Part shown: positions 4,434 through 31,494 of the stretch, piece after piece
Layout of the letters: every line of letters starts with the position of its first letter
Numbering within the stretch: the first letter of the stretch is position 1
DNA from: a virus
Length of the DNA: 34,021 nucleotides
Direction: 5' to 3' (one strand)
Virus record (IMG/VR): IMGVR_UViG_3300027704_000076
Coordinates: 1-34,021 of that record
The notes under the pieces: model-generated
Seen by the model: only the letters and a program-made list of their open reading frames with translations
What the model was told of the DNA's origin: nothing
Databases searched by the model: none
Translations under genes and position numbers: made by a program

Positions 4434-5786
4434 CTAGTAAGGTTTGCATCCACGGGTGCCGTGATTAGTTTTCATACCTACTTTACCACCAGACATGAGT
4501 TTTGTAGCATTCTTACGTTTAGCAGCTCTTTTTTTAAAAGCAGCTGTTTCGGCATCCAATTTTTTGGACATAGCTTCCTCCCGTGCTAAGCCTTTAGCAT
4601 CAGGTGTTTTGCCTGACCTAGCAATGATTGTACTTGAATAACTTCTACTAGGTACACCCTTGGAATTAAGTGTATATACAGGCTTAGGCTTAGTAGCCTT
4701 CTGCTTAGTATCCTTCTTAGGAGGATTCTTAGCCTTATTAGCCTTATTAGCCTTCTTAGGAGCTTCAACTCCCGGTGCGCGTTTGATATCCTTCCTAGAC
4801 TTTGCAATCTCAGACTTCATAAGCTTCTTATCAGCTTCGGAGATTACATTGGAGCCACGCCCAGTCATCTGATCCTTGCTCATTCCTTTGTAGGGATTGG
4901 CAGCTTTACCTTTTGGAAGCATATTGATCACCTGACCAAGACCAATCTTATTAGCATTTTTGATATTAGGGTTAGCCTTCATCAATGCAGCTACTGTGAG
5001 ACCATTCTTCTTGGCAATCTGTGATAGGGTATCACCTGACTTGACTTTATAAGATTTCTTAGGAGATACAAAATCTACAACGGCATTAATCCCTTTCCCA
5101 ATAGCTTTAGGAGCGACCTTTGCTAAGTTATCCTTATCCTTAACAGGTTTCTTTAAAGCTTGTCCAACAGGCTTATTAGTGATCTTAAAAGGACTATCTT
5201 TTAAGAATCCTTTTGCTTTAGGTTTCTTAGCTTTAGAAGCTTTATCAGTACCTAGAAATTTACGAATAGATTCCATCAGTCCCTCACCTTCTTTAAGCTT
5301 TACAGTACCGCCTTTTTTTAAATTTAAACTACTCATAGACTTTTTAACAGAAGCAGCTTTAGCTTTCTTATTATCATCAGCAGTCATAGAGTTGTATGAA
5401 CGATTATTAAGTTTAAAGTCACCTTTTTTATTTAAAGGAAATTTTTGACCATCAATAGTAAATGAATTTTTACCGGCTAAACGAGCTTTACGTGCAGCAG
5501 AAAAAGCTTGTCTAAACCCTACAGCTGAAGCAGACTTCTTTTTATAGACAGGATACTCACCACCCTTTGTTTTTTTAGTTACCTTCTTAGGAAGAATACT
5601 ACCTTTCTTTTTCTCTGTAGCTATATCAGTGTAGGCTCCTCCTAAGTTAGCTTTACCTAAAAATACACTTTTATTTTTAGCCTTCTTAGCTGCCAACGCT
5701 TTCTTAAGAGCTACAGATTTTTTAGATTTAGGAGATGCTCTTTTTTCCATAGACGCTTGAGCTTTCTTCATTATATCGAATGCCAT
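4434..5786 (-). CDS. Lysine-rich protein with a LysM domain
   Basis: This 450-residue protein is extremely rich in Lys and Ala. A clear LysM domain occupies about residues 246-290 (YKVKSGDTLSQIAKKNGLTV, then IGLGQVINML), which normally binds N-acetylglucosamine polymers such as peptidoglycan. Residues 91-120 contain FRQAFSAARKARLAGKNSFT followed by IDGQKFPL, which resembles a short motif seen in other marine podovirus virion proteins. The C-terminus has a Gly-Gly-Lys then GTRGCKPY tail. No lytic domain is visible. It may be an internal virion protein that helps cross the cell wall at entry, or an anchoring factor. It starts 24 bases after the stop of the upstream basic gene. Confidence 0.75.
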   Translation of the reverse strand: MAFDIMKKAQASMEKRASPKSKKSVALKKALAAKKAKNKSVFLGKANLGGAYTDIATEKKKGSILPKKVTKKTKGGEYPVYKKKSASAVGFRQAFSAARKARLAGKNSFTIDGQKFPLNKKGDFKLNNRSYNSMTADDNKKAKAASVKKSMSSLNLKKGGTVKLKEGEGLMESIRKFLGTDKASKAKKPKAKGFLKDSPFKITNKPVGQALKKPVKDKDNLAKVAPKAIGKGINAVVDFVSPKKSYKVKSGDTLSQIAKKNGLTVAALMKANPNIKNANKIGLGQVINMLPKGKAANPYKGMSKDQMTGRGSNVISEADKKLMKSEIAKSRKDIKRAPGVEAPKKANKANKAKNPPKKDTKQKATKPKPVYTLNSKGVPSRSYSSTIIARSGKTPDAKGLAREEAMSKKLDAETAAFKKRAAKRKNATKLMSGGKVGMKTNHGTRGCKPY

Positions 5787-12838: not shown

Positions 12839-15331
12839 CTAGGACTTTTTAGTTTTATTATCGTCCACTAGGAGCTTACCTATAACATCACCGACCTTCA
12901 TACGTTCTTCTTGAGTGAAAGACTTGTCTTGTTTGATTAGATCAGTCATAGCTTTGATTGCTTCCTTCTGTAAAGCTAGACTACGATCTTTGGTCTTTTC
13001 TTCGATCTGGGTTAATGCAGTGGCACCCTTTTCGTAGGCTTTGAGTGCAAGTTCTTTTTCATCTAGGTCAATCTTACGATTGGCAATCTGGGACTCACTC
13101 AACTCTTTAGCCAATGTCCCTTCGACACGCTTATCATCAATGATTAATCTTTGTTCTTCCAGCTTAACCATTTGTTCTTCAGGTGAACTTGGGCCTTCAG
13201 CTGCAGCTTTATTGGCTTCCATAACCTGTGTAGCTGCCTGCGTCATAGCCATCTGTAATACCTTAGGGTCTTGACCATCCGCACCTTTGGTTATCTCCTG
13301 AGTCATACCATTCATTTGTTCCTGATACTTCATGATACTGTGTTCTTGGATATTTGCAGTGATTAGGGGGACTACCCTCTGCATGATAGGTGAGGCACCA
13401 TTGGCTGGGTCTTGTAGGTATGCCATCTTAACCTGTATGTGTGCATCATGTTGCTGCCCTGCAAAAGCCTTGATAGGCATACCTTTAACTGCAGCCATCA
13501 AGTCTGATACTGGGTCCATAGGTTGAGGGTCAGGCTTCTTAGGCATAATCCTATCTAGGTTGGGCATGTTTGCCGACTGAAGGATTGTCTTATTTAATTC
13601 CTCCATGTCGAACATACCGGCAGGGGAGGTCTGGGCCATTTGCATAGCCATCTGGTTCATCATCATCCTATGTGCATTGGACGGAACATTGGGATCAGAT
13701 ACTGGGATGATATCAATTCTACCATCATAGTCAGACTTTAGGGCTTTGTTATCATAATCATTAAGCTCATATGGGTACTCATCAGGGAGGAACTCGTAGT
13801 TTAATCTGGCAAGAATCTTAAGTTCTTCTTTTTGGGCTTTATGTAATCTTTTATGTACCGCTGAGAAGAACTTACCTGATGCTTCTAGTAGGGCCATCGT
13901 AGTACCTACTGGACCCTTATTACTACCGTCTGAGATAACCTTCTCTGTAGAGTCTGCAAACTTCTCTCCGACACCGGATACAAACTGTAGCATCTGGAAA
14001 AGGGTCTGGGATGGTTCTTTGTAGGGGAGTGGTACGATAGACTTGGTTAAGTCCATACCGGTTGCCTCTACTTCTTTAAACTCACCGGGGGCTATAGGAT
14101 CATTGTCTCCGGTGATACGGACACCCTTAGCTTTGAAACCTGCAGGTAGAGTTGCAAACTGACCAGCATCCACTAAGGCACGTAGGGCTGAGGTAGCTGT
14201 CATTGTTAGGTTGCCCAAGAAATGCATAAGTCCCAGACCATAGAATCCAAAACCGGGGACAAACTTATAGTGGACAAAGAAGTCTTTCTTTATTCTACGT
14301 GGGTCATCCAAGTTATAGTTACGTCGAATAGCTAAGATAGTCCCACTGTCTAAGTCTAGGGTAACAATGTAGGGGAGTGTCAACTCGGTATCATCTTCAT
14401 CAACTTCTATGTCAAGGTATGTGTGTTGCTCCAGTAATGTAAACTGTGGATCATACTCAGCCTGAGGAGAGACACCCATGACCTCATTCATCTTTATAGC
14501 CATACCAGCCAAGTTTGGCTCTGCAGCATCTCCTAAGTCTACGTCCCTATACATTCCTGACACTACTTCACGTTCCATCTCAATAGGGGACCTATAGATG
14601 ACCTGTGTGTATCTGGCAGCTTTCTGTAGTGATGTAGCAAAGTTTGATATGTAGAACTGGTTAATAGGTACAAACTCTGAAACGTTTACACCCAGCCCCA
14701 CATCATGGTAGACCTTCTTGAATGCCGACCCAAATAATGGTAGGTGGAATAACATCCGTTCCTGTTCATCAAAGTACTCAGGCATCTCATCAGTGATCTG
14801 GTAGTTCATGTGGTTCTTGATACGGTTTGCCTGATTTAGTTTACCTTCAGTTTGTTTACCGACCACCTTTGTCTTGACTGGACCTGAAGCAGGTAGTAAC
14901 TCTTGGATGGCTTTAGATTGGAACTTAACTGCAGACTCAATCAGTAATGGATGAACTGCAGTACAGGCACCTTCAAATGGCTCTGATGTTTCTTCAATCT
15001 TCAACCCTAGTAGGTCAAAGCCTTTATCAAACATCTGTTCCCACTCTTCTCTGGAGGACTTGTCAGACTCGTAGGCATTGATTACCTGAGTGGATATGAT
15101 CTGTAGGTCTTCCTCATCCATCTTATCTACTAGGTTCTCATAGAAACCATCAGTGGACTTGGGATCAAAGTCTGGTATCTCAGACTCCCCATTACCTTCA
15201 AGGTCAATAATTACATTACCATCATCATCAAATACTAATGTAGACATGGGAGATTCTAAATCCATCTCAGACGGATCAATCATAGGCTCATCAATATTGG
15301 TTGGTTCGTTTGGGTTTTTAGCTATAGCCAT
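12839..15331 (-). CDS. Portal protein (P22-like)
   Basis: This 830-residue protein resembles the large podovirus portals. Its early region has SREEWEQMFDKGFDLLGLK and GACTAVHPLLIESAVKFQSK. The core has YFDEQERMLFHLPLFGSAFK and the wing/stem region has FFVHYKFVPGFGFYGLGLMH. The C-terminal 200 residues are Gln-, Glu- and Lys-rich helices that fit the barrel of P22-type portals. It would form the 12-mer vertex for DNA packaging and tail attachment. It follows TerL in the usual order and is preceded by a promoter candidate at 15406-15434. Confidence 0.9.
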   Translation of the reverse strand: MAIAKNPNEPTNIDEPMIDPSEMDLESPMSTLVFDDDGNVIIDLEGNGESEIPDFDPKSTDGFYENLVDKMDEEDLQIISTQVINAYESDKSSREEWEQMFDKGFDLLGLKIEETSEPFEGACTAVHPLLIESAVKFQSKAIQELLPASGPVKTKVVGKQTEGKLNQANRIKNHMNYQITDEMPEYFDEQERMLFHLPLFGSAFKKVYHDVGLGVNVSEFVPINQFYISNFATSLQKAARYTQVIYRSPIEMEREVVSGMYRDVDLGDAAEPNLAGMAIKMNEVMGVSPQAEYDPQFTLLEQHTYLDIEVDEDDTELTLPYIVTLDLDSGTILAIRRNYNLDDPRRIKKDFFVHYKFVPGFGFYGLGLMHFLGNLTMTATSALRALVDAGQFATLPAGFKAKGVRITGDNDPIAPGEFKEVEATGMDLTKSIVPLPYKEPSQTLFQMLQFVSGVGEKFADSTEKVISDGSNKGPVGTTMALLEASGKFFSAVHKRLHKAQKEELKILARLNYEFLPDEYPYELNDYDNKALKSDYDGRIDIIPVSDPNVPSNAHRMMMNQMAMQMAQTSPAGMFDMEELNKTILQSANMPNLDRIMPKKPDPQPMDPVSDLMAAVKGMPIKAFAGQQHDAHIQVKMAYLQDPANGASPIMQRVVPLITANIQEHSIMKYQEQMNGMTQEITKGADGQDPKVLQMAMTQAATQVMEANKAAAEGPSSPEEQMVKLEEQRLIIDDKRVEGTLAKELSESQIANRKIDLDEKELALKAYEKGATALTQIEEKTKDRSLALQKEAIKAMTDLIKQDKSFTQEERMKVGDVIGKLLVDDNKTKKS

Positions 15332-15447: not shown

Positions 15448-17022
15448 TTATACTTTCCAGTAGGACCTCTTCCTAGCCCTTGGGGAGTCTATAGGGTCAT
15501 AATTGGGGTCTTCAGGGTGTAGAATGTTCCATGAATCCCTCATATATTGTATAGCCATAGTCATACAATCAACTTGGTCATCATGTGCAGCATTGGGGAA
15601 TGTGATGGCTTCTTCATACAGATCAACAGCCCAGTCTTTATTGCTTGGTATCCAGACCCTACCAGACTCCATAAGGGGTGTTGAAGCGTAGACCCTACTT
15701 ACTTTATCCCTGTCGGGGAGATAGTCTAATACTGGCAGACCAGCCCTCCTCAGGTCCTGCAGCAGTGATTGTCCTGATGCCTTCTTCTCTATTATACAGA
15801 TGTCTGGTCTGTACATGTCATGCATCTCTTGAGCTTTTCTCCTTAGCTCTGGATATTCAAATCTATCCTTTACATTGCTGAGGAGGATCATGTTGGATAC
15901 ATAGGCTTCTGATCCTTCAGAGTCCTGACCCATCTGCCCAAAGATACCCCATGTCTGTATCACTGAATAATCTGCAGTCTTTGAAGTACTGAAAGCTGTA
16001 TCATATGTTTGTAGTATAAACTCACACTGTGGAGGGTCTTCTTCATCCCACCACTGGAACCACTTCTTCTTAATGATACCACCCTCATCCGGCTGTGGGT
16101 CCTGCATGTATAGGGCATTCCAGTAACGACTACCGTTGGCAGCTTTTATTTCTTCTTCATCTATCCTTAACATCTCATCTGACTTCCACTCTGGAAAGTA
16201 TGATGAACCCACATCCATGTTCAGTAGTTCTGCAGCGTCTTCATCTAACCATGCAGGTATCTTTATAACCTCCCACTTATTGGTCATGTCATTGTCCGAC
16301 TCCTGCTTCAATAGCCATCCACAGATGTCATCATAGTGATACCTAGTATTTATTATTATGATGGCACCATTGGGCATCACACGGGTCCTTAAGCCTGAAG
16401 GATACCATTCTTTTATGTAACGTCTACCGGCTTCTGAGAAGCTATCATCCTCCGACATTACATCATCAAGTATGGCTACGTGAGCGCCACGACCTGCCAA
16501 CTTAGACCTGACACCGGCTGCGTAGTATTTACCTCCTTTACTTGTCATCCATTTACCGGCAGCTTTAACGTCTGCCCTTAGCTGTACACCATTAAACATT
16601 TCTTGGAAGTCTTCATCGTTGACAATGTCCCTGACTGATCTGCCGAAGTCTGACGCTAGTTGGTCTGAGTGGGACAGGGCCATTATTTCATGTGCTGGAT
16701 TATGACCCATATACCATGCAGGGAATAGCATGGAACAGATGACTGACTTGGTTGATCGGGGTGGTAGGAAGACCATCAATCGTTTACATTCACCCTCCAC
16801 TACTGCTTGGAGCTTGTCGCATAGTAGTTCAATATGCCTACCCATGACAAACTCAGGAATTATCTTGGGAGCTTCTTTTCTGACAAATGATAGGAAGCAC
16901 TCTTGTGCGGCTAGGTCTACTCTAGGCTTTAAGGCATTCCTCAAAGCTAGGCAGTCTAACATGTTAGTCTTCGGATTCTTTGTCAGAAAAGAACTTGATC
17001 CGGTGTCTGTGTTGTCGATCAT
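15448..17022 (-). CDS. terL: Terminase large subunit
   Basis: This 524-residue motor ATPase/nuclease packages DNA. Walker A is FLPPRSTKS (Lys92), Walker B is VAILDD (Asp186, Asp187), and the coupling motif is INTRYHYDD near residue 225. The RNase H-like nuclease has Asp341 (QTYDTAFS), Glu412 (CIIEKKASG) and the Asp481-485 cluster (HDDQVD). All catalytic positions are present. The ATG at 17022 has GGAAGA upstream but overlaps the preceding gene by 59 bases. An ATG at 16962, one base after that gene's stop, would give a 504-residue product that keeps every motif. Confidence 0.95.
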   Translation of the reverse strand: MIDNTDTGSSSFLTKNPKTNMLDCLALRNALKPRVDLAAQECFLSFVRKEAPKIIPEFVMGRHIELLCDKLQAVVEGECKRLMVFLPPRSTKSVICSMLFPAWYMGHNPAHEIMALSHSDQLASDFGRSVRDIVNDEDFQEMFNGVQLRADVKAAGKWMTSKGGKYYAAGVRSKLAGRGAHVAILDDVMSEDDSFSEAGRRYIKEWYPSGLRTRVMPNGAIIIINTRYHYDDICGWLLKQESDNDMTNKWEVIKIPAWLDEDAAELLNMDVGSSYFPEWKSDEMLRIDEEEIKAANGSRYWNALYMQDPQPDEGGIIKKKWFQWWDEEDPPQCEFILQTYDTAFSTSKTADYSVIQTWGIFGQMGQDSEGSEAYVSNMILLSNVKDRFEYPELRRKAQEMHDMYRPDICIIEKKASGQSLLQDLRRAGLPVLDYLPDRDKVSRVYASTPLMESGRVWIPSNKDWAVDLYEEAITFPNAAHDDQVDCMTMAIQYMRDSWNILHPEDPNYDPIDSPRARKRSYWKV

Positions 17023-17853: not shown

Positions 17854-17882
17854 ACAAGTATGAATAATGGTTACGACGATAG

Positions 17883-17924
17883 AGGCCTCTATAATTTTAT
17901 ATATTATAGAGGCCTTGTTTTTTG
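17883..17924 (+). terminator. Strong rightward intrinsic terminator without an obvious gene
   Basis: AGGCCTCTATAAT (17883-17895) pairs perfectly over 13 bp with 17903-17915 around a 7-base loop and is followed by TGTTTTTTG. The T tract is on the plus strand only. No coding sequence precedes it, so it may end a small RNA or stop rightward readthrough before the early promoters. Confidence 0.7.
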
Positions 17925-17994
17925 TAGAATTTATTGGGGGGGTAGTATATATATATGCACACGGGCCACGTAGCTGCGGTGGGGTCTCTGGATT

Positions 17995-18026
17995 GACTAT
18001 ATAGTTCTCTACAGAACTTTATAGTC
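17995..18026. other. 14-bp hairpin, first of a run
   Basis: GACTATATAGTTCT (17995-18008) pairs with 18013-18026 with one T-T mismatch around the loop CTAC. It is the first of several hairpins spaced through the next 300 bases. Confidence 0.6.
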
Positions 18027-18028
18027 AC

Positions 18029-18140
18029 AGTGTTGCTGATATGTCACAGTAGACTAACTAGTCTACAGTGACTTAATTGCCACAATCATAGCTCTTTAGA
18101 GCTACCCTAACACTAAAGTGTTGCTGAAATACCACAGTAG
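18029..18140 (+). repeat. Duplicated 24-mer AGTGTTGCTGAWATRYCACAGTAG
   Basis: Copies lie at 18029-18052 and 18117-18140 and differ at 3 of 24 positions. Each is next to a hairpin. The first copy runs into the hairpin at 18043-18072, and the second overlaps the 5-bp AACAC/GTGTT hairpin that begins at 18109. Confidence 0.65.
18043..18072. other. Perfectly symmetric hairpin
   Basis: GTCAC (18043-18047) and GTAGACT (18049-18055) pair with AGTCTAC (18060-18066) and GTGAC (18068-18072). One A-A mismatch separates the two helices and the loop is AACT. Confidence 0.6.
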
Positions 18141-18318
18141 GCCTCGTGAGTTATGATGATCGTAGGCCCACCCCCGCATATGTAGTCTACTTAGTCGCGC
18201 ATGATCCGCGAGGCTCAGAAATCTGGTGTGGTAATTATGCCACAGTTATTCCTTAACTCTATAGAGTTACCAGACAACCAAGACTATACAACCTATCCCC
18301 TTAAAACCTAAGAGGTTT
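18088..18318. other. Further palindromes of the central region
   Basis: Four more symmetric elements follow: TAGCTC-TTTA-GAGCTA near 18088-18103; TGTGGTA-ATTA-TGCCACA at 18227-18244 with one wobble pair; the 16-base palindrome TAACTCTATAGAGTTA at 18254-18269; and AAACCT-AAG-AGGTTT at 18304-18318. None has a T tract, so they are not ordinary terminators. Confidence 0.55.
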
Positions 18319-18396
18319 CAGCCCAGACAACCCATGTCTTCCCAAGTATTAATACCTGCCAAGATCACGGAAAGGTTGACGAGGTTTTGGGATTGG

Positions 18397-18468
18397 TATA
18401 ATATATCTAGTTAATAGTAATAACCTAGTTCTTACGAAGGTTATTACCTTATTAACTTAGATATTATA
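18397..18468 (+). promoter_or_regulatory. Class A hairpin leader, copy 1
   Basis: Left arm 18397-18426 and right arm 18438-18468 flank the loop AGTTCTTACGA (18427-18437). The inner stem is TAATAACCT with AGGTTATTA, the middle stem GTTAATA with TATTAAC, and the outer arms TATAATAT with ATATTATA. TATAAT may serve as a -10 box, with TTGACG 15 bases upstream. It precedes the 48-residue gene. Confidence 0.85.
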
Positions 18469-18492
18469 GAGAAGATTAGGAAGGAAATTAGT

Positions 18493-18639
18493 ATGTTTCA
18501 GTTAGTTTTGGAAACCTCTGATGGAGACTTATTAGTCTCCTCAGAACTATTTGATAGCTTCGAAGAAGCTGTTGCAGCAGCCAAAGCTAAGACCAAAGGT
18601 CTTGGTGAAGGTGAAACCTTAACTGTCGAGCCGTTTTGA
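18493..18639 (+). CDS. 48-residue early protein
   Basis: An ATG at 18493, preceded by AAGGAAAT, opens a 48-codon frame ending in TGA at 18637. The product starts MFQLVLETSDGDLLVSSELF and continues with a short Ala/Lys helix (EEAVAAAKAKTKGLGEG). It is compact, acidic overall, and of unknown function. It is the first gene of the rightward arm, where phages often place host-takeover factors. It ends 4 bases before the second class A element begins. Confidence 0.65.
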   Translation: MFQLVLETSDGDLLVSSELFDSFEEAVAAAKAKTKGLGEGETLTVEPF

Positions 18640-18643
18640 AAGG

Positions 18644-18715
18644 TATAATATATCTACTTAATACTAATAAGGTAGTTCTTACGAACCTTATTAGCTTATT
18701 AAGTTAGATATTATA
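18644..18715 (+). promoter_or_regulatory. Class A hairpin leader, copy 2
   Basis: Arms 18644-18673 and 18685-18715 flank the invariant loop AGTTCTTACGA. The inner stem is CTAATAAGGT with ACCTTATTAG, and the middle stem is CTTAATA with TATTAAG. Arm lengths (30, 11, 31) equal those of copy 1, while stem bases differ and remain paired. It precedes the 74-residue gene by 14 bases. Confidence 0.85.
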
Positions 18716-18729
18716 AAGGATTATTAATA

Positions 18730-18954
18730 ATGGAAAATGTAGTTACAACAGTTGAGGATTTTATGTTCCCTAAAGGGTATGTTGAAATCCACTGTGGTCT
18801 CCATATCTACGATATTGAAAACCCTGATGAAGCAAAGCTTCAGCATTTAGTCAATCAAACCTTTGGTTTTGATGATGGCTGGCCCAGACGTTGGGTAGAA
18901 TTAGTAAGTCTTAACTTACTTGACGGCTCAATTACAATTCTCGATTGTTCTTGA
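18730..18954 (+). CDS. 74-residue early protein of unknown function
   Basis: AAAGGA lies upstream of the ATG. The product has a beta-rich start (YVEIHCGLHIYDIENPDEAK) and a Trp-containing segment (GFDDGWPRRWVELVSLNLLD). It is acidic and soluble and no family was recognised. It forms the second early cassette, between two class A elements, and ends 5 bases before the next element. Confidence 0.65.
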   Translation: MENVVTTVEDFMFPKGYVEIHCGLHIYDIENPDEAKLQHLVNQTFGFDDGWPRRWVELVSLNLLDGSITILDCS

Positions 18955-18959
18955 CAAGG

Positions 18960-19031
18960 TATAATATATCTAGTAAGTAATAACTAGGTAGTTCTTACGA
19001 ACCTAGTTATCTTACTTACTTAGATATTATA
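18960..19031 (+). promoter_or_regulatory. Class A hairpin leader, copy 3
   Basis: Arms 18960-18989 and 19001-19031 flank AGTTCTTACGA. The inner stem is TAACTAGGT with ACCTAGTTA, and the middle stem is GTAAGTA with TACTTAC, changed at several positions on both sides compared with copies 1 and 2. TTGACA ends 3 bases before the element. Confidence 0.85.
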
Positions 19032-19057
19032 AAACTTAAACAAAAGGATTATTAACT

Positions 19058-19246
19058 ATGGATATTTCAACAATCGAACTTCATGAATTAAACTTTCAAC
19101 TATGGATGGCTAATAAGCCAATCGAAGTTTCAACATCCTGTGGGTCTATTGATACTCATGACACCGATACCGGTGAACACCTCGACAGTTTTGAGACTGT
19201 CGTTGAAGCAACATTTGCTTTACTAGTTAAACCCTTATCGGTATGA
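19058..19246 (+). CDS. 62-residue early protein of unknown function
   Basis: AAAGGATT precedes the ATG. The product is acidic with a Trp-containing N-terminus (ELHELNFQLWMANKPIEVST) and a short hydrophobic end (VEATFALLVKPLSV). No family was recognised. Its stop overlaps the start of a 26-residue membrane peptide gene in an ATGA, so the two are probably translated together. This is the third class A cassette. Confidence 0.6.
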   Translation: MDISTIELHELNFQLWMANKPIEVSTSCGSIDTHDTDTGEHLDSFETVVEATFALLVKPLSV

Positions 19247-19323
19247 TTATCTTATTAATTATCTTGGGCATTGGAACCTTCATAATAGTAGGTTCTATCC
19301 TTCAATCCTCCAACAAATTTTAA
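19243..19323 (+). CDS. 26-residue single-helix membrane peptide
   Basis: The frame starts within the ATGA overlap at 19243 and ends in TAA at 19321. The product begins MIILLIILGIGTFIIVGSIL, a clear membrane helix, and ends in a short polar tail (QSSNKF). It ends 3 bases before the fourth class A element. A second 26-residue peptide follows the next gene. Function unknown. Confidence 0.5.
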   Translation: MIILLIILGIGTFIIVGSILQSSNKF

Positions 19324-19326
19324 ATA

Positions 19327-19399
19327 TATAATATATCTAGTTAATAATTGATAGGGTAGTTCTTACGAACCTATCAATCTTATTAACTTAGATATTATA
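19327..19399 (+). promoter_or_regulatory. Class A hairpin leader, copy 4
   Basis: Arms 19327-19357 and 19369-19399 flank AGTTCTTACGA. The inner stem is TTGATAGG(G)T with ACCTATCAA, with one extra G in the left arm. The middle stem equals that of copy 1. No TTGACA-like box precedes this copy. Confidence 0.85.
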
Positions 19400-19426: not shown

Positions 19427-19762
19427 ATGACAAACATTACAACAGCTACCACTATCGAATACAAATCTGCCAAAGGTGGCTTCATCTCAGTAGATGATAT
19501 GGATGCCGATCACCTAAGGAATGCTTTCAAAAAACTGATTAAGGATCAGTTAATCCCTGAAGGTCGTGTTGTCAGCAACGTTGTTGATCAGAAGCTATCC
19601 CTTAAAGCTTTAGCTTCTGTCCAAGCAGCCATCGTTGATATCCGTAAGATAGATATGTCGGCCTCTGAAGAGGGTGTTGAGCATTGGAAGGGTGTAAGAA
19701 AGACCCTTGCAAACGTCGGTATCCTACTTGATCAGTATGCTAATCCTGACAAGGATGTTTAA
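19427..19762 (+). CDS. 111-residue early protein of unknown function
   Basis: AAAGGAAA precedes the ATG. The product starts with a beta-like segment (TTIEYKSAKGGFISVDDMDA) and is otherwise helical (LRNAFKKLIKDQLIPEGR, LKALASVQAAIVDIRKIDMS, KGVRKTLANVGILLDQY). It looks like a small globular or coiled soluble protein. It forms the fourth class A cassette together with the membrane peptide gene downstream. No family was recognised. Confidence 0.65.
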   Translation: MTNITTATTIEYKSAKGGFISVDDMDADHLRNAFKKLIKDQLIPEGRVVSNVVDQKLSLKALASVQAAIVDIRKIDMSASEEGVEHWKGVRKTLANVGILLDQYANPDKDV

Positions 19763-20228: not shown

Positions 20229-20276
20229 TCTTATTAGGACTGGGCTATCTATTATGGTAGCCCATGTCTAATAAGA
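20229..20276 (+). other. Long two-part hairpin after the HTH gene
   Basis: TCTTATTAG (20229-20237) pairs with CTAATAAGA (20268-20276). After a 3 by 3 internal loop, TGGGCTA (20241-20247) pairs with TAGCCCA (20258-20264). No T tract follows, so a simple terminator is unlikely. It may be a processing or stability element. Confidence 0.6.
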
Positions 20277-21699: not shown

Positions 21700-21788
21700 T
21701 TAGAATAACTAATCTAGCCTATGGCACCATAATGTACTTGATAGGTATCATAACAGGCACCGCCATCATGTATGGTCTAATGAATTAA
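21696..21788 (+). CDS. 30-residue membrane peptide
   Basis: The frame starts in the ATGA overlap with the upstream gene and ends in TAA at 21786. The product (MIRITNLAYGTIMYLIGIIT at the start) has one hydrophobic helix with Gly residues. It is one of several tiny predicted membrane peptides in this arm. Coupled translation is likely because no separate Shine-Dalgarno is required. Confidence 0.5.
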   Translation: MIRITNLAYGTIMYLIGIITGTAIMYGLMN

Positions 21789-21790
21789 AT

Positions 21791-21839
21791 AAGTATACAC
21801 CATAGTAGTAATGAAATGAATACTATGGATTGTATACTT
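21791..21839 (+). promoter_or_regulatory. Class B hairpin leader, copy 1
   Basis: AAGTATACACCATAGTA (21791-21807) pairs with 21821-21839 around the loop GTAATGAAATGAA, with a 2-base bulge in the right arm. The copy at 25811-25856 has the same bulge and a compensated T-A to G-C change. It precedes the gp88-like gene by 24 bases. Confidence 0.7.
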
Positions 21840-21863
21840 TAAACAACTTGATAGGAGATTGAT

Positions 21864-22565
21864 ATGACTAGCACCAATGGAAATTTAGAGTTAAGATATT
21901 GTGAAGATATAGATATGTTTGCATGGGACAGACCTATCAATGACATACCTGAACATGACATAGAAGGATCATGTTTACATGCCACCGATTATTGCAAGGC
22001 AACATGTTACAACAACAAGTTGTATAAAGTATACAAGAACATGGTAGTTAAAGATGTAAGGAATGAGATTGCTTGGCAGGCAATGCAGCCCAACCAAGTT
22101 GCTAAACAACTCAACCGAAAGTTAAAACCTACCAATAGGGTTAGGGGATGTACCAGAGGAGAGAACATTAAAGATGTTAGCGATGTCTATAGAATTGCAA
22201 ACCTAGCAAGGGCTACACCCAATACAGACTATTGGATACCAGTCAGAGCATGGCGTGACCCTGAGTTGAAAGCCCTAATAGAAGAGGTCTTGTTTCCTAT
22301 AGGAAATGTTGTAGTTAATGCAAGTACTGATCCTTCCACCACTATAGAAGAGTGGCACATGTTGGAAGATGATGGATGGTCTATCATGAATTTTGGGAAC
22401 TCAGATACTCATACACCCACAGGTAGTAGAATGTTTAAGTGTCCAAAGACACAGGGAAACCATGGTAAGGGCATTAAAGGCCATTGTTCAACATGCAAGG
22501 CTGGTTGCTTTAAGAAGATAACAATGGGCATCCCGTCCATCGTACAATTAGGAGAGGCGCATTAA
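21864..22565 (+). CDS. Gene-product-88-like Cys-rich protein
   Basis: This 233-residue protein has an N-terminal Cys cluster (Cys37, Cys44, Cys48 in ATDYCKATCYNNK) and a C-terminal one (Cys193, Cys208, Cys211, Cys215, in GHCSTCKAGCF). Two conserved-looking cores are NTDYWIPVRAWRDPELKALI and VVVNASTDPSTTIEEW. The pattern matches the phage family called gene product 88, whose activity is unknown to me. Seven Cys in two groups suggest a metal or iron-sulfur site. TAGGAGA precedes the ATG. Confidence 0.65.
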   Translation: MTSTNGNLELRYCEDIDMFAWDRPINDIPEHDIEGSCLHATDYCKATCYNNKLYKVYKNMVVKDVRNEIAWQAMQPNQVAKQLNRKLKPTNRVRGCTRGENIKDVSDVYRIANLARATPNTDYWIPVRAWRDPELKALIEEVLFPIGNVVVNASTDPSTTIEEWHMLEDDGWSIMNFGNSDTHTPTGSRMFKCPKTQGNHGKGIKGHCSTCKAGCFKKITMGIPSIVQLGEAH

Positions 22566-23946: not shown

Positions 23947-24885
23947 ATGTTAAATAATAATATGTTTGACCACAATAAGATTGACTTCACAGTATCCAAG
24001 CATACCATGTATGATGAGTCAGGTAAAGCTATTGACCATGACATTGGTATGTTACTTAAACGTAACGATACCTTTGAAGGATTGAGTGTTGTAAGTGATG
24101 GCTATACACCAGTACAGTATGGCGACATTGTTAGTCAGGTAGAAGATTCATTAGTTGAATCAGGTATCGACATGACAGATGCTGAGTTCTTCACCGGTGT
24201 ATTTAATAACGGATCACAGTTGGAATTACGTGCTAAGTTTCCAGCGCATAAGCAATCCATTGGTCGGCTAACCGATACTGTAGTACCACAGTTTGTCTTC
24301 CGTACCTCCCATAATAAGACATGGGGCAACAATGGAATGGTTGGTCTTTGGAGAAACATGTGTTGGAATACCTTAGTATCAGGCAGTAAATTAGCCTATA
24401 CATATGGTCGGCATACTAAGGGCTTCTCAGTCCCCACCTTTGCAGCTAAGGTTAAGAATGCTGCCGAGTACATAGCCGGTGATGGGATGACACAGATGAA
24501 TAACTGGTTCGATACTATGGTTGATCGTGACACTATCATTGATATGTTCTCAGAAACCTTAGCCAGCCGTGTCGATAACGTTAAACGTACCAAGGTAGCC
24601 AACAAGGTTATGCTGTCCCACCTTATGAAGGTCTTTGATGAAGAGGCAAGACACCTACATGGTAAGTCAGCCTATGGTTCCTACGCCTCCAATACTAATG
24701 GCTCATTGTGGTGTGCCTATAATGCCGCAACTCATTGGTCTTCTCATGTCAGTCAGTCTAAGTCTGACACACCTCAGAATGTTAGGGTGACCCGTGAGGA
24801 TAGGGTTAAGAAGATGTTAGCCAGCCCTGAATGGTTGAGCCTAGAGGGTACGGTTGATGAGCCAACTACAATGCTTGCGGCTTAG
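23947..24885 (+). CDS. DUF932-family protein
   Basis: This 312-residue protein matches the phage/plasmid DUF932 pattern: a YTPVQYGDIVSQVEDSLVES segment after residue 55, a central QFVFRTSHNKTWGNN, a WRNMCWNTLVSG core near residue 140, and a C-terminal SLWCAYNAATHWSSHV stretch. Proteins of this family are common in phages and plasmids and have no established activity known to me. It occupies its own unit between a promoter candidate and a hairpin at 24897. The start lacks a clear Shine-Dalgarno. Confidence 0.8.
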   Translation: MLNNNMFDHNKIDFTVSKHTMYDESGKAIDHDIGMLLKRNDTFEGLSVVSDGYTPVQYGDIVSQVEDSLVESGIDMTDAEFFTGVFNNGSQLELRAKFPAHKQSIGRLTDTVVPQFVFRTSHNKTWGNNGMVGLWRNMCWNTLVSGSKLAYTYGRHTKGFSVPTFAAKVKNAAEYIAGDGMTQMNNWFDTMVDRDTIIDMFSETLASRVDNVKRTKVANKVMLSHLMKVFDEEARHLHGKSAYGSYASNTNGSLWCAYNAATHWSSHVSQSKSDTPQNVRVTREDRVKKMLASPEWLSLEGTVDEPTTMLAA

Positions 24886-24896
24886 CATAGTATACA

Positions 24897-24946
24897 TAAG
24901 ATATGTTTGTCACCTATATGAATCTCATAGGGTGGCAAACGTCTTA
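24897..24946 (+). other. Hairpin between the DUF932 gene and the next gene
   Basis: TAAGA (24897-24901) pairs with TCTTA (24942-24946). TTTGTCACCTAT (24906-24917) pairs with 24927-24939 with a wobble pair and a 1-base bulge. No T tract follows. It could be a leader element like the others in this arm or a weak terminator. Confidence 0.5.
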
Positions 24947-24978
24947 GGTACTAATATAAATATTAAAGTATAGGAAAC

Positions 24979-25233: not shown

Positions 25234-25749
25234 TTAAAGGAAGTAAAGGCCACCAAGTAATGAACCGCCAAGAAACATTTCCATCACTGAACCTGAGTTC
25301 CAATGAAAGTCCTTCCCAAGAAGAGGTATCGACTTCTCCTGACAACCTACTAGATCAAAAAGTTTTTGTCGAATTGGATAAGACCATCCCATTAATGCAG
25401 CAATCATTGGATAAATTAATGCCCCCCACTGCCCTTGGACAAGCCACGGCATCACTAATAACAATGAAGGCACTCCATACCTTAGCATCATATGTTTCCG
25501 GTCTTCCCATTGAGTATACCCCATCCCCAGAGTCAGAGACACTACAAGAACAGCCCAGCCCATACAGGCTACTGTCAAGATATCTAAGCCCTGATGAATG
25601 GAAACTAATTGAAGAGCTACGACTATCAAAGCTATCGGAGGATAAGTTGCCCATCGGCTTAGATGACCACTTCCAACAAGTGATCGACCAGCTGCACCAA
25701 GTAACACGGATATGGTTCCGAACAGAATAGTAATCAATAGGCTTGACAT
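25234..25749 (-). CDS. Multi-pass membrane protein on the opposite strand
   Basis: This 171-residue protein has hydrophobic segments near residues 3-21, 37-52, 57-77, 89-104, 107-123 and 156-171, separated by charged loops (YTQWEDRKHMMLR, YPIRQKLFDL, DFHWNSGS). GGGAGG lies 8 bases before the ATG, the strongest ribosome-binding site of this region, and a promoter candidate lies further upstream. It points against all neighbours. A rightward frame of equal length (25215-25730) overlaps it but has a low-information Ser/Pro/Leu composition. A holin-like or superinfection-exclusion role is possible and not shown. Confidence 0.7.
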   Translation of the reverse strand: MSSLLITILFGTISVLLGAAGRSLVGSGHLSRWATYPPIALIVVALQLVSIHQGLDILTVACMGWAVLVVSLTLGMGYTQWEDRKHMMLRYGVPSLLLVMPWLVQGQWGALIYPMIAALMGWSYPIRQKLFDLVGCQEKSIPLLGKDFHWNSGSVMEMFLGGSLLGGLYFL

Positions 25750-25774
25750 ATTATATACCTCCCAGTATAGGTAG

Positions 25775-25803: not shown

Positions 25804-25810
25804 CTCTTAG

Positions 25811-25856
25811 GGATACACCATAGTTGAGTTCTATACGAACACTATGGATTGTATCC
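25811..25856 (+). promoter_or_regulatory. Class B hairpin leader, copy 2
   Basis: GGATACACCATAGT (25811-25824) pairs with ACTATGGATTGTATCC (25841-25856), with the same 2-base bulge as copy 1. The loop contains GTTCTATACGAAC, close to the invariant class A loop. It precedes the 122-residue gene by 33 bases. Confidence 0.7.
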
Positions 25857-25889
25857 TTTATATAACAACAACAACGGAGACTGACTAAC

Positions 25890-26258
25890 ATGAAAATTAT
25901 ATTTGACATGCCAAAAGGTATTACAATTACACCGCCGAAAGACATTACTGAAGAACAAACAACTAAAAACTTTACTAAGATGGTTGTGGCTGCTACCAAG
26001 GAGATGATCAAGGGTGATCGTAAGGCTGATGGTAAGTGGTCAATGAAAGAGATTGTTGACTGTATTCAAATGGAGTTGGGTAGTAACTCTGGTAATATAG
26101 CCAGAGCATACATCCTAAAGACCCGACTAAACATTGAAGATATAACTCAAGAAGTAGGCTACATAAATCGTAATATCTCTATTGCTAAAGAGCAAGGTAA
26201 ACTAGACAAGTACTTCAAAGGTAAGAAAAATATTAAATCAACTGGAGAAACTAATTAA
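25890..26258 (+). CDS. 122-residue protein upstream of the primase-helicase
   Basis: GGAGACTG precedes the ATG. The product begins with a beta-like MKIIFDMPKGITITPPKD and is then helical and basic (FTKMVVAATKEMIKGDRKAD, then EVGYINRNISIAKEQGKLDK). It ends 2 bases before the helicase gene and is probably co-translated. A role as a replication accessory is plausible from position alone. No family was recognised. Confidence 0.6.
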   Translation: MKIIFDMPKGITITPPKDITEEQTTKNFTKMVVAATKEMIKGDRKADGKWSMKEIVDCIQMELGSNSGNIARAYILKTRLNIEDITQEVGYINRNISIAKEQGKLDKYFKGKKNIKSTGETN

Positions 26259-26260
26259 AC

Positions 26261-27946
26261 ATGACAAACTATAGAGAGTACACTAAAGAGTTGGACAGTA
26301 CCCCAGTATCTAAAGGCCCCTGTGATTGTGGCTCCTCAGATGGTAACGTACTGTTCAGTGATGATCATTCATATTGTTTTGTGTGTAACAACTACACACC
26401 CCCAGATAATGGGTTCACAAACCAACCACAAGACTCGTATGTCCAAGCTCCTATACAGGGTGTGGTAAATACACATCTAACTATCGGGGACTGGAAAGCT
26501 ACTGCTTTGGTTGATCGTAACTTAAAAGGTGAGACACTCCAGAAGTATGGTGTAACCTTAGACAGGGACGGTACAGATGTACTGAAGCATTACTACCCAT
26601 ACACTGACGTTGAAGGTAATCACATTGCTAATAAAGTCAGACAAGTTAAAGATAAGAAGTTCTTTGTTGAAGGTAACCTACCTCAGGCTACTATGTTTGG
26701 TCAGAAACTATTCCCTAAAGGTGGTAAGTTTATAACCATCTGTGAAGGGGAAATAGATGCAATGTCAGCCTATGAATTGACTGGGTCACAGTATGCAGTG
26801 GTATCTGTCAAGACAGGTGCGGCTGGTGCAGTCAAGGATGTTAAGGCACAGTTTGAATACCTAAACTCTTTTGAGACTGTGGTTGTATGCTTCGACATGG
26901 ATCAAGCAGGACAGGATGCGGCCTCTAAAGTAGGTCAGCTATTTGAACCTAACAAGTGTCGTATCATGAAGCTTACAGATAAGGATGCTAACGAGTATCT
27001 AAAGAAGAATGATCGTACAGGGTTTACCAAAGCATGGTGGGCCGCTGAAGCGTTCACCCCTGCCGGTATCATTAACCTAGCCAGCATAGGTGAGTCACTC
27101 TATGATGAGGCAGATAACATTACTGTTAAGTATCCATGGGAAGGTATGAATGACATCCTATATGGTATCAGGACAGGGGAGCTAGTAACCTTCACGGCTG
27201 GTACTGGTGCCGGTAAGTCAAGTATCATTAGAGAGCTTGAGCATTGGATACTGAATAACTCTGAAGAGAACATCGGCATCTTTAGTTTAGAAGAGAATAC
27301 TAAACAGACATGCTTCCATCTAATGGCTGTCGAGGCTAACGCTAGACTAAACATTAAGGAAGTCAGAGACCTCTATAGTAAGGAAGCGTTACATACCTAT
27401 CAAAATAATACTATAGGTACTGGTAGAGTGTTTGCCTTTGACCACTTCGGGTCATTGGACAATGATGATATCCTTAACAGGTTACGGTATATGGTTAAGG
27501 CTTTAGGATGTAAATGGATTATCCTTGATCACCTATCTATATTGGTGAGTGGACAAGAAGGTAATGATGAACGTCGATCTATTGATATCCTTATGACTAA
27601 GCTTAGGAGCCTAGTAGAAGAGACACAGTGTGCATTGCTAATGGTATCACACATCAGACGGATGGGTGGCGACACTGGGGCTGAGGATGGTAAGGAGATT
27701 GCATTGAATCACCTGAGAGGTTCAGCATCTATTGCACAGATTAGTGATGCAGTCATAGCTATTGAACGTAACCAACAGGCCGACGATCCTAACGAGGCTA
27801 ACAAGACTACAGTAAGAGTACTTAAGAATCGTTATGCCGGTATCACTGGTGTAGCATGTCAGTTGACATATGATAGGGAAACAGGTAGACTGACTGAGTC
27901 AGACGATGACTTTGAAGATTCACTGGACATTCCCTTTACAGACTAA
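26261..27946 (+). CDS. T7 gp4-like primase-helicase
   Basis: This 561-residue protein has the T7 gp4 layout and nearly its length. An N-terminal zinc-ribbon-like motif uses Cys21, Cys23, Cys39 and Cys42. The TOPRIM primase core has CEGEIDAM (Glu162, Asp166) and CFDMDQAG (Asp212, Asp214). The RecA-type helicase has Walker A AGTGAGKSS (Lys319), Walker B WIILDH (Asp423), and MVSHIRR and LRGSASIAQISD motifs. It should unwind DNA at the fork and prime the lagging strand. The first Cys pair is CxC, while T7 gp4 has CxxC. The C-terminus is acidic and ends in Phe-Thr-Asp. Confidence 0.95.
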   Translation: MTNYREYTKELDSTPVSKGPCDCGSSDGNVLFSDDHSYCFVCNNYTPPDNGFTNQPQDSYVQAPIQGVVNTHLTIGDWKATALVDRNLKGETLQKYGVTLDRDGTDVLKHYYPYTDVEGNHIANKVRQVKDKKFFVEGNLPQATMFGQKLFPKGGKFITICEGEIDAMSAYELTGSQYAVVSVKTGAAGAVKDVKAQFEYLNSFETVVVCFDMDQAGQDAASKVGQLFEPNKCRIMKLTDKDANEYLKKNDRTGFTKAWWAAEAFTPAGIINLASIGESLYDEADNITVKYPWEGMNDILYGIRTGELVTFTAGTGAGKSSIIRELEHWILNNSEENIGIFSLEENTKQTCFHLMAVEANARLNIKEVRDLYSKEALHTYQNNTIGTGRVFAFDHFGSLDNDDILNRLRYMVKALGCKWIILDHLSILVSGQEGNDERRSIDILMTKLRSLVEETQCALLMVSHIRRMGGDTGAEDGKEIALNHLRGSASIAQISDAVIAIERNQQADDPNEANKTTVRVLKNRYAGITGVACQLTYDRETGRLTESDDDFEDSLDIPFTD

Positions 27947-27961
27947 AGAGGACTAATAAAC

Positions 27962-29701
27962 ATGAGAGTCAGTACAGATATTGAGACAGACAAGATACGT
28001 AATGGATTAGTTACTAAGATACACTGCATAGCCTGTACTGACTTAGACAGTGATGCAGAATATAAATTTGTATTACCTATGGACTTGGATAAGTTTATAG
28101 AGTTTAGTAAGTCTGTTACCCTATGGGTTGGTCATAACTTAATAGGCTTTGACTTAGTATGGATCAAGAAGTTTACAGGAGTATCAGTACCGCTGAAGCT
28201 GGTTGAAGACACAATGATCCTATCTAAGATGCATCACCCCTACAGGGAAGGAGGCCATTCACTGGCTGCATGGGGGGAAAGATTAAAGTTTCCTAAGATA
28301 GACTTTGATGACTATGATAACTACTCAGAAGAGATGTTAGAATATTGTTGTCAGGATACTAGGGTAACTAAGAAGCTCTACTTATCTTTGAAACCTTCAA
28401 TGGCTAACTGGTCAGACAGGTCTATACAGCTAGAGTATCAAGTCAGATCAATCGTTACCCAACAGGAGTTCAACGGCTATCCAATCAAACGTAAGGAAGC
28501 CTATATATTACAGGCAACCTTTGAAGATAGGATGGCAACTGTTGAAGCTGAGGTGCGTAAAGTATTTAGACCACTACCTATCAATGAAGGCTTAAAAGTA
28601 GTTAAGTATAAAGAAGATGGTAGTATGTATCTTAATAGTTATAAAAGACTTGGTAGTCATGGTAAGTATGTATCAGGTGACTACACATTTATTGACTGGC
28701 CTGAGTTTAACTTAGGCAGTAGACCACAGATATCCAGACACCTGATGCACTATGGTTGGAAGCCTAAAGAGTTTACACCTACTGGACAACCTATTGTTGA
28801 TGAAGCTCACCTAGAAGGGGTAGACATTCCAGAGGCTCAGCTGATCTGTGAGTACCTAATGTTACAGAAGAGATTAGCTGAGGTATATAAATGGATTAAG
28901 TTCTCAGAGTTTGACGGTAAGGTACATGGTCAAGTAGATACATGTCGGGCTGTCAGTAACCGTATGGGACATATGGAACCAAACCTAGCTCAAGTCCCAT
29001 CCATTGGGTCTACATGGGGTAAGGAATGCAGAGAACTATTTACTGTCACTGACCCTGATAGGTATGTTCAATTAGGTACTGATGCTTCAGGCTTAGAGAT
29101 GAGGTGTCTGGCCCACTACATAAATGACCCTGAGTTTACTGATGAGTTAATGAATGGGGACATACACACTAAGAACATGAACGATGCTGGACTAGACAAC
29201 AGGGATCAAGCTAAGACCTTTATCTATGCCATGATCTATGGTGCCGGTGGAGGTAAGATAGGAGAGATCGTTGGTGGGTCTGCCAAGGTAGGTAAGAAAC
29301 TTATTGAGACCTACATGAACAACAACCCTAAACTAAAGAACCTTAAGAAGGCTGTCGAGACTAGAGCTACCAAGACAGGCTTCATACCAGCCCTCGACGG
29401 TAGGATACTAAGGGTTAGGACACCACATGCAAGTCTTAATCTTTTATTACAAGGATGTGGAGCTATAATTTGTAAACAATGGTTAGTAGAGATAACAAAA
29501 CTATATAGGAAAAGGAGACTAGACGCTACCCTGTTAGCATCAGTACATGATGAGTACCAGTGGGAAGTATTAAAAGAGGACGCTGATGAGTTTGGTGACC
29601 TGTGCAGTGAAGCTATTAAGCTTGCTCAAGTATCACTGAACGTTAGGTGTCCTTTAGATGCAGACTATAAGATCGGCCTTAACTGGGCTGAGTGTCATTA
29701 A
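27962..29701 (+). CDS. Family A DNA polymerase with 3'-5' exonuclease (T7 gp5-like)
   Basis: This 579-residue replicative polymerase starts with an exonuclease domain: Exo I STDIETD (Asp6, Glu8), Exo II GHNLIGFD (Asp64), Exo III YCCQDTRVT (Asp132). Polymerase motif A is GTDASGLEMR (Asp374), motif B is RDQAKTFIYAMIYGAG (Arg414, Lys418, Tyr422, Tyr426), and motif C is SVHDEYQ (His529, Asp530). All catalytic positions are present, so proofreading and synthesis are expected. It is shorter than T7 gp5 (about 704 residues). It lies 15 bases downstream of its usual partner, the primase-helicase. Confidence 0.95.
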   Translation: MRVSTDIETDKIRNGLVTKIHCIACTDLDSDAEYKFVLPMDLDKFIEFSKSVTLWVGHNLIGFDLVWIKKFTGVSVPLKLVEDTMILSKMHHPYREGGHSLAAWGERLKFPKIDFDDYDNYSEEMLEYCCQDTRVTKKLYLSLKPSMANWSDRSIQLEYQVRSIVTQQEFNGYPIKRKEAYILQATFEDRMATVEAEVRKVFRPLPINEGLKVVKYKEDGSMYLNSYKRLGSHGKYVSGDYTFIDWPEFNLGSRPQISRHLMHYGWKPKEFTPTGQPIVDEAHLEGVDIPEAQLICEYLMLQKRLAEVYKWIKFSEFDGKVHGQVDTCRAVSNRMGHMEPNLAQVPSIGSTWGKECRELFTVTDPDRYVQLGTDASGLEMRCLAHYINDPEFTDELMNGDIHTKNMNDAGLDNRDQAKTFIYAMIYGAGGGKIGEIVGGSAKVGKKLIETYMNNNPKLKNLKKAVETRATKTGFIPALDGRILRVRTPHASLNLLLQGCGAIICKQWLVEITKLYRKRRLDATLLASVHDEYQWEVLKEDADEFGDLCSEAIKLAQVSLNVRCPLDADYKIGLNWAECH

Positions 29702-30277: not shown

Positions 30278-30297
30278 GACGTTAAGGGTAACTAGGG

Positions 30298-30333
30298 TAG
30301 GGGTTTGGGTGATGAAAGTTATCCAAGCCCCTA
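30298..30333 (+). terminator. Terminator-like hairpin after the SSB gene
   Basis: TAGGGGTTTGG (30298-30308) pairs with CCAAGCCCCTA (30323-30333) with one G-U pair and a 14-base loop. Only TTAGTTTAT follows, so termination may be partial, or the hairpin may protect the 3' end of the SSB message. Confidence 0.5.
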
Positions 30334-30366
30334 TTAGTTTATAACCTATTGAAAGGTATAGATATT

Positions 30367-31413: not shown

Positions 31414-31494
31414 ATGAATAACAACATGACAAAGGTAGGTTTAATAATTATAACTGCTTGGATAGTTATAATGATAATGCCTATCTTCTTTTAA
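31414..31494 (+). CDS. 26-residue membrane peptide
   Basis: The ATG at 31414 has AGGAAA 8 bases upstream. An in-frame ATG at 31384, overlapping the exonuclease stop, would add ten residues. The product (MNNNMTKVGLIIITAWIVIM at the start) has a polar N-terminus and one membrane helix. Its length equals that of the peptides at 19243 and 19769. Confidence 0.5.
   Translation: MNNNMTKVGLIIITAWIVIMIMPIFF

Follow-up and report, generated by a model that had tools for sequence, protein, structure and literature searches.

RNase III sites of phage T7 are long hairpins at early gene boundaries, present several times per genome, with stems whose sequence is not conserved. The boxB hairpin of phage lambda is about 15 nt long with a pentaloop and acts with boxA, and its loop type varies between relatives. 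Hairpin promoters of phage N4 have stems of 5-7 bp and loops of 3 nt, and require the giant virion RNA polymerase. Integron attC sites form cassette borders; they are inverted repeats that fold, with stems that vary and bases that lie outside the helix, and they keep the boxes at the stem base while the tip varies. The put element of phage HK022, which overcomes terminators further downstream through binding to the beta' zinc-binding domain, is a cis-acting RNA of early transcripts whose paired stems contain particular unpaired bases and which needs no phage protein (PMC9378689).

Here we describe a hairpin that leads early genes in a marine phage record of 34,021 bases (positions 1-34,021; the window, to which coordinates refer unless a contig is named). 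Judging from its sequence, the hairpin has the look of a marine phage control element that has not been described before, with a putative function.

Results

The late genes of the window run leftward (terminase, 15448-17022; portal, 12839-15331), and the early and replication genes run rightward from 18493, among them those for a T7-like primase-helicase (26261-27946) and PolA (27962-29701). A first-pass annotation had described four long hairpins with a common loop at the head of the early block, and all four are present as described, on the + strand: copy 1 at 18397..18468 (72 nt, loop 18427-18437), copy 2 at 18644..18715 (72 nt, loop 18674-18684), copy 3 at 18960..19031 (72 nt, loop 18990-19000) and copy 4 at 19327..19399 (73 nt, loop 19358-19368, with one extra G adjoining the loop). 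They lie 5' of the first four early ORFs, which are on the + strand, encode 48, 74, 62 and 111 aa (18493..18639, 18730..18954, 19058..19246 and 19427..19762, respectively) and have no family that we could find. Between the 3' edge of each hairpin and the start codon lie about 14-27 nt, which include a Shine-Dalgarno-like sequence.

The 11-base loop, AGTTCTTACGA, is invariant across the four copies, as had been claimed, and exact occurrences of its core, GTTCTTACGA, within the 34 kb are confined to them. Each copy folds as one long hairpin, with energies from -22.8 to -25.9 kcal/mol and z from -5.3 to -5.5; none of 200 shuffles folded as well, and a covariance model recovers all four at E 1e-17 or better. 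While the arm architecture of the first-pass annotation is exact as to the elements, the arms are not simple palindromes, since bulges occur in both and copy 4 has its extra G. Three offsets are conserved: where the inner stem meets the middle stem, the 3' side has a bulge of two nt (CT); a single T stands between the middle stem and the outer one; and the left outer arm contains a further bulge of 2 nt. The stems are A+T-rich with no T-run behind them, and no terminator-like site (G+C-rich stem plus T run) was found at any of the four.

Inspection and folding suggest that the window holds two diverged copies beyond the four first counted. Copy 5 (21791..21839, + strand; AAGTATACA-CCATAGT-[AGTAATGAAATGAAT]-ACTATGG-AT-TGTATACTT; z = -2.7) leads a GP88-like gene of 233 aa (21864..22565, + strand), and copy 6 (25809..25858, + strand; AGGGATACA-CCATAGT-[TGAGTTCTATACGAAC]-ACTATGG-AT-TGTATCCTT; z = -3.4) leads a 122-aa ORF (25890..26258, + strand) directly 5' of the primase-helicase gene. 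Both have the 2-nt 3' bulge of copies 1-4, but copy 5 has a different loop; that of copy 6 resembles the loop of copies 1-4 (class I below) with a small insertion. The covariance model matches these sites weakly, at 21785-21842 (E 0.13) and 25808-25860 (E 2.8), and because such scores are near chance their membership is a matter of judgement.

Other structures occur near these genes. A strong terminator-like hairpin with a T run (17882-17916, + strand) stands between the late and early blocks, and the roughly 400 noncoding nt upstream of copy 1 (17950-18340) contain several hairpins and a repeated TGTTGCTGA..CACAGT motif. The hairpins of this stretch are retained in contigs L045 and L052 with changed arms, so it may be a structured RNA or a regulatory region in its own right. 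Long intergenic hairpins that lack the conserved loop are found at 20229-20275, 24885-24950, 30290-30340 and 31432-31487, at breaks between early or middle genes, with folding z down to -5.2.

Selection on pairing

The first-pass annotation had read the differences among the arms as compensatory change, and hence as selected pairing. For eight distinct copies, the window's four together with near-relative copies from L010, L052 and L007, 12 of 28 pairs differ in both partners and no pair differs in just one of them, which bears out that reading. Paired cells amount to 98.2%, compared with 83.7% after partner shuffling, and slid registers are only 32-43% paired. The covariation score is 0.375 against 0.090 for shuffles, none of 500 of which reached 0.375; thus the lack of significant covariation that the annotation had named as the telling contrary result, which we checked in kind, was not what emerged. 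The same analysis of 25 class I stems gave a score of 0.81 against 0.18 shuffled, in an alignment whose rows with 11-nt loops are off by one column, an error that can only lower the score. The clearest single instance of compensatory change is the first copy in L052 and L045, which has wholly different arms and the same loop. The pairing of the hairpin is under selection.

Within the inner eight pairs of the non-redundant true elements, about 400 pairs in all, there is no G-U pair and there are a few mismatches; the G-U cells in the pair tally all come from sites that have no true stem. Wobble may not be tolerated, or the arms may be matched by template switching, or it may be the DNA form that acts.

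Distribution of the loop

The same loop core is found on unrelated stems of 8-22 bp in more than 30 other viral contigs, with up to six copies per genome; because the collections were sampled by exact patterns these counts are lower bounds, and related copies among them are not independent. In relatives with a terminase about 70% identical, hairpins occur that combine this core with other stems. A scan with a pattern of loop and ribosome-site letters, containing no stem letters beyond the closing pair, returned 63 loci, and the length of the stem beside TTCTTACGA was two-peaked, at 0-5 or 8-22 bp. What is conserved across phages is therefore the loop at the tip and not the arms.

The variants of this class I loop are few, with AAG, GAG, AG or AC on the 5' side and UUAC, UUGC, UAC or UGC at the tip. 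The closing pair may be U-A, A-U or C-G, and this variability suggests that the unit is a tip on a free stem, which we would read as roughly [R]A-GU-UCUU-AC-GA; the ACTTCTTACGA variant does not fit this putative fold. Two other models of the tip were rejected, a kink-turn because the fixed G-A step is absent from the window copies, and a UUC/GAA mini-stem because it does not hold for elements closed by A-U or C-G (L166, L264).

A second loop class, GATACTTTAGTGA, is the repeated loop in HMO-2011 (two copies) and CRP-1, and related tips occur in the isolates CRP-345 and CRP-1. HMO-2011-type phages are reported to be a dominant and broadly distributed marine viral group (PMC9038755), and their kin include a 54.5-kb carrier of the element (G030) whose PolA is 55% identical to that of Roseobacter phage CRP-345. 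Scanning for GATACTTTAGTGA gave at least 120 stretches; among the matches listed, 82 of 140 sites have seven or more pairs and 58 have three or fewer, with none between. Class II occurs in many more contigs, the isolates HMO-2011 and CRP-1 among them. The two tips look interchangeable, since contig L166 has both, class I in three copies and class II in one, within a common outer frame. At HMO-type loci (L156, L157, L174, L166 and others) the elements are closely followed on their 3' side, a short way 5' of the ribosome site, by another small hairpin, GTCCAATGTTGGAC, of which paired variants occur (GTCCGACAGCGGAC and GTCCGATGTCGGAC). A perfect 28-bp stem in L108 (+ strand), also present in L117, has a loop, TTCATTCTGAACTT, unrelated to both classes.

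Searches elsewhere were negative. No other repeated-loop hairpin was found in relatives G005, G008, G010, G014 and G015 (terL about 70% identical, no exact loop), and no hairpin with either loop in the scanned stretches of pelagiphages HTVC104P and HTVC027P and lake phage DSL-LC04, or in Sinorhizobium phage phiM6. BLAST of the array and of other stems against 50,697 phage records returned chance matches only. Among possible hosts, GTDB genomes gave no match to the class I pattern of the window, and a second pattern matched only two Francisella contigs, at sites that showed no 8-bp stem.

A leader RNA as the probable acting form

Among 94 non-redundant elements, 84 are followed on the sense strand, within 130 nt, by an ORF start led by a Shine-Dalgarno sequence; random positions would give about 32, and the antisense direction gives 14. 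The copies within one genome all have the same orientation. In L052, at 4890-5146, the fourth element has no gene start behind it but about 250 nt that appear to be noncoding.

We give a probability of about 0.5 to the proposal that the elements are transcribed 5'-leader RNA hairpins whose loop is read by a trans-acting factor and which act on each early mRNA; that RNA is the acting form, that the loop has a reader, and what follows from the reading are all things that we infer. According to this proposal, each early expression unit would have one leader hairpin, with the apical loop recognised by the factor and the stem, free in sequence, serving to display the loop and to provide double-stranded RNA. 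Transcripts from an upstream promoter would contain the whole hairpin, while those from the promoter that overlaps copy 1 would start with it. A factor that binds or cuts there would then determine where the mRNA of the next gene begins and how stable it is or how well it is translated (processing, stabilising or licensing it), and if the hairpin fixes the expression of the adjoining gene in this way, each small early gene would be an autonomous and exchangeable cassette.

Several observations favour a leader RNA: the pairing is selected, the loop predicts a stem, and the elements are gene-proximal in the sense direction with an asymmetric loop whose sense orientation would not be maintained by copying of the arms alone. 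A promoter-like site at 25743..25771 (+ strand; TTGACA, 17 nt, TATAGG), read by eye and below the scan cut-off, lies wholly upstream of copy 6, so that its transcript would carry the complete hairpin, and other intergenic breaks in the early region also have long hairpins, of other sequence.

The factor that reads the loop is more likely a host protein than a phage protein, since the carriers were found to share no specific gene. BLAST of the carriers revealed no carrier-specific phage protein, a search that small basic proteins could escape. The genes common to the carriers are those for replication and packaging and MazG-like, DUF932 and Cas4-like genes, and relatives that lack the element mostly have the shared replication and packaging genes too. 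The first candidates would be RNase III or some RNA-binding protein of the host.

Promoters and a possible DNA form

The first-pass annotation had reasoned that, if TATAAT is a -10 box, transcripts would start near the base of the middle stem. The sequence agrees with this for copy 1, which overlaps a sigma-70-like promoter (18376..18404, + strand; TTGACG, 17 nt, TAATAT, or 15 nt to TATAAT; 9 of 12 matches) whose -10 is inside the left outer arm and whose predicted start, at about 18410-18412, is at the base of the middle stem; TTGACGAGGTTTT is retained at the homologous position in L005, L045 and L052. Copy 1 also has its -35 and -10 at the 16-18 nt spacing of our sigma-70 scan, a scan whose yield is about the same as from shuffled DNA. 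Copies 2-4, on the other hand, have no -35 hexamer 16-18 nt before the TATAAT or TAATAT of the arm, only weak 9-of-12 matches with other hexamers. We therefore retain the earlier view that the four leaders head early cassettes but do not accept that each of them drives transcription.

In the element set as a whole, TTGAC[AGT] occurs 30 times at 25-80 nt before the loop, where 3.6 are expected, and twice in the next 45 nt out. These -35 boxes are mostly at -34 to -57 from the loop, which places the -10 in the left arm, and in L174, L197, L261 and L278 a TTGACA stands exactly 17 nt before a TATATC or TATACC in that arm. When the upstream TTGACA is taken as anchor, transcription is often predicted to begin within the inner stem or the loop, and the transcript would contain a partial hairpin; a simple 5'-cap model thus does not fit all elements. 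In L020, a relative without the loop, a long early-region hairpin on the reverse strand (about 4661) has TTGACT and TATACC 17 nt apart, with the TATACC located in its loop (GTAGGGCAAGGCTAGTGTATACCTAGTCTTGCC).

These predicted internal starts weaken the case for a leader RNA, as does the complete absence of G-U pairs, which would be odd for a structure that acts only as RNA and which makes a role at the DNA level conceivable. By analogy with N4, the element might be an extruded cruciform or single-strand hairpin over a host promoter, its loop read as single-stranded DNA. Strict Watson-Crick pairing and the placement of the -35 boxes would both suit such an element, as would copy 1 of L045 and L052, in which both outer arms have changed even though transcription from the promoter would begin inside them. 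We nevertheless consider it unlikely, if credible, that the element acts in this way, given that about 70% of elements have no TTGAC box, that the promoter-like site of copy 6 is outside the hairpin, that no RNA polymerase gene was seen among the large ORFs checked, and that the consistent closeness to start codons suggests mRNA.

Antitermination and gene exchange

A nascent hairpin might also, alone or with an N-like protein, bind RNA polymerase and render the elongation complex resistant to pausing or termination. As put RNA needs no phage protein (PMC9378689), such a role would fit the absence of a shared phage factor; the swapping of class I and class II loops between phages recalls the variation of boxB, and the class II elements of HMO type have their second hairpin. 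However, the + strand of the early region has one weak terminator-like site, the total being below chance expectation, and intrinsic terminators are not enriched downstream of the elements. Genomes carry up to six copies where one per operon would suffice, and the fixed fold of put, two adjacent stem-loops in about 70 nt, has no counterpart in the window, where each copy is one hairpin. Antitermination is thus an unlikely function.

Units consisting of an element and its gene are present or absent between near relatives, with junctions at the element edge, from which it follows that the elements are at least modular borders. At one and the same site L005 has the stem of copy 2 directly after the first promoter, L045 has a unit of 82 aa, and the window has the unit of 48 aa. 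Such gain and loss would be expected if the repeats served mainly as homology for the exchange of early genes and had little regulatory effect. Template switching between inverted repeats, which homogenises arms (PMC8604942), could then have produced two-sided changes without G-U steps. Yet template switching inverts the spacer as well (PMC8604942), and here the loop has kept its sense orientation and the bulges have not been erased, so that arm copying alone is unlikely; moreover, the conservation of the loop and its position near genes require selection. We regard exchange as the main role as improbable.

Finally, ordinary host promoters with chance dyads or terminators are a very improbable explanation, for although copy 1 overlaps a plausible sigma-70 promoter, z is below -5 in all four copies, the stems covary and lack a following T-run, and the element recurs in more than 30 contigs.

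Beyond the leader RNA that we prefer, a broader proposal can be made tentatively, and we think it rather less likely than not to hold in full. The element would be a widely shared, undescribed control element of marine phages, in which the tip, class I RAGUUCUUACGA or class II GAUACUUUAGUGA and interchangeable within a genome, is a code read by a conserved host factor, the stems are free under strict pairing without wobble, and each early cassette is licensed by an element that may act through DNA as well as RNA.

Comparison with known systems

The first-pass annotation knew of no described phage element of this form, and we likewise found none in the open-access literature or in Rfam 15 (4227 families), where the window and eight other carrier loci gave no match at gathering or relaxed thresholds, the best sub-threshold matches being chance ones to miRNA and snoRNA models. 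Nor did we find in the open-access literature a description of early-gene control in HMO-2011-type phages. The element marks the 5' edge of early genes and groups small unknown genes into exchangeable cassettes, and its presence in cultured phages (HMO-2011 and CRP-1, with a related hairpin in CRP-345) makes it testable. If a host factor reads the loop, the element would be a new point of contact between phage and host, and if the strict pairing reflects a role of the DNA, it would be a new form of promoter.

Of the systems compared, N4 hairpin promoters share with the element a hairpin that overlaps a promoter, but their virion RNA polymerase was not found among the large ORFs of the window, which may be incomplete. 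The attC sites of integrons likewise fold from inverted repeats, vary in their stems, have extrahelical bases and mark the borders of cassettes; here, however, it is the tip that is kept and the base that varies, and no integrase, of integrons or otherwise, was found among the window ORFs searched. The boxB sites to which lambda N binds are likewise small RNA hairpins of early transcripts with a conserved loop whose type differs between relatives, but BLAST, which small basic proteins can escape, revealed no N-like protein common to the carriers. HK022 put resembles the element in its hairpins with unpaired bases in early transcripts and in needing no phage protein, but has two stem-loops in a fixed fold and one copy per early operon, in contrast to the single hairpin in many copies described here, a second hairpin being present only in elements of HMO type.

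The RNase III sites of T7 are similar as long paired hairpins at early gene boundaries, several per genome, and the 28 pairs of the window copies reach the roughly two helical turns of duplex in intergenic early mRNA that are typical of T7, while many class II (family 2) copies elsewhere have only about 14-18 pairs. The element thus resembles these sites in anatomy and would be a putative site of RNase III cleavage. Where the two differ is at the tip, for T7 sites have no invariant terminal loop that is common to all copies and to unrelated phages.
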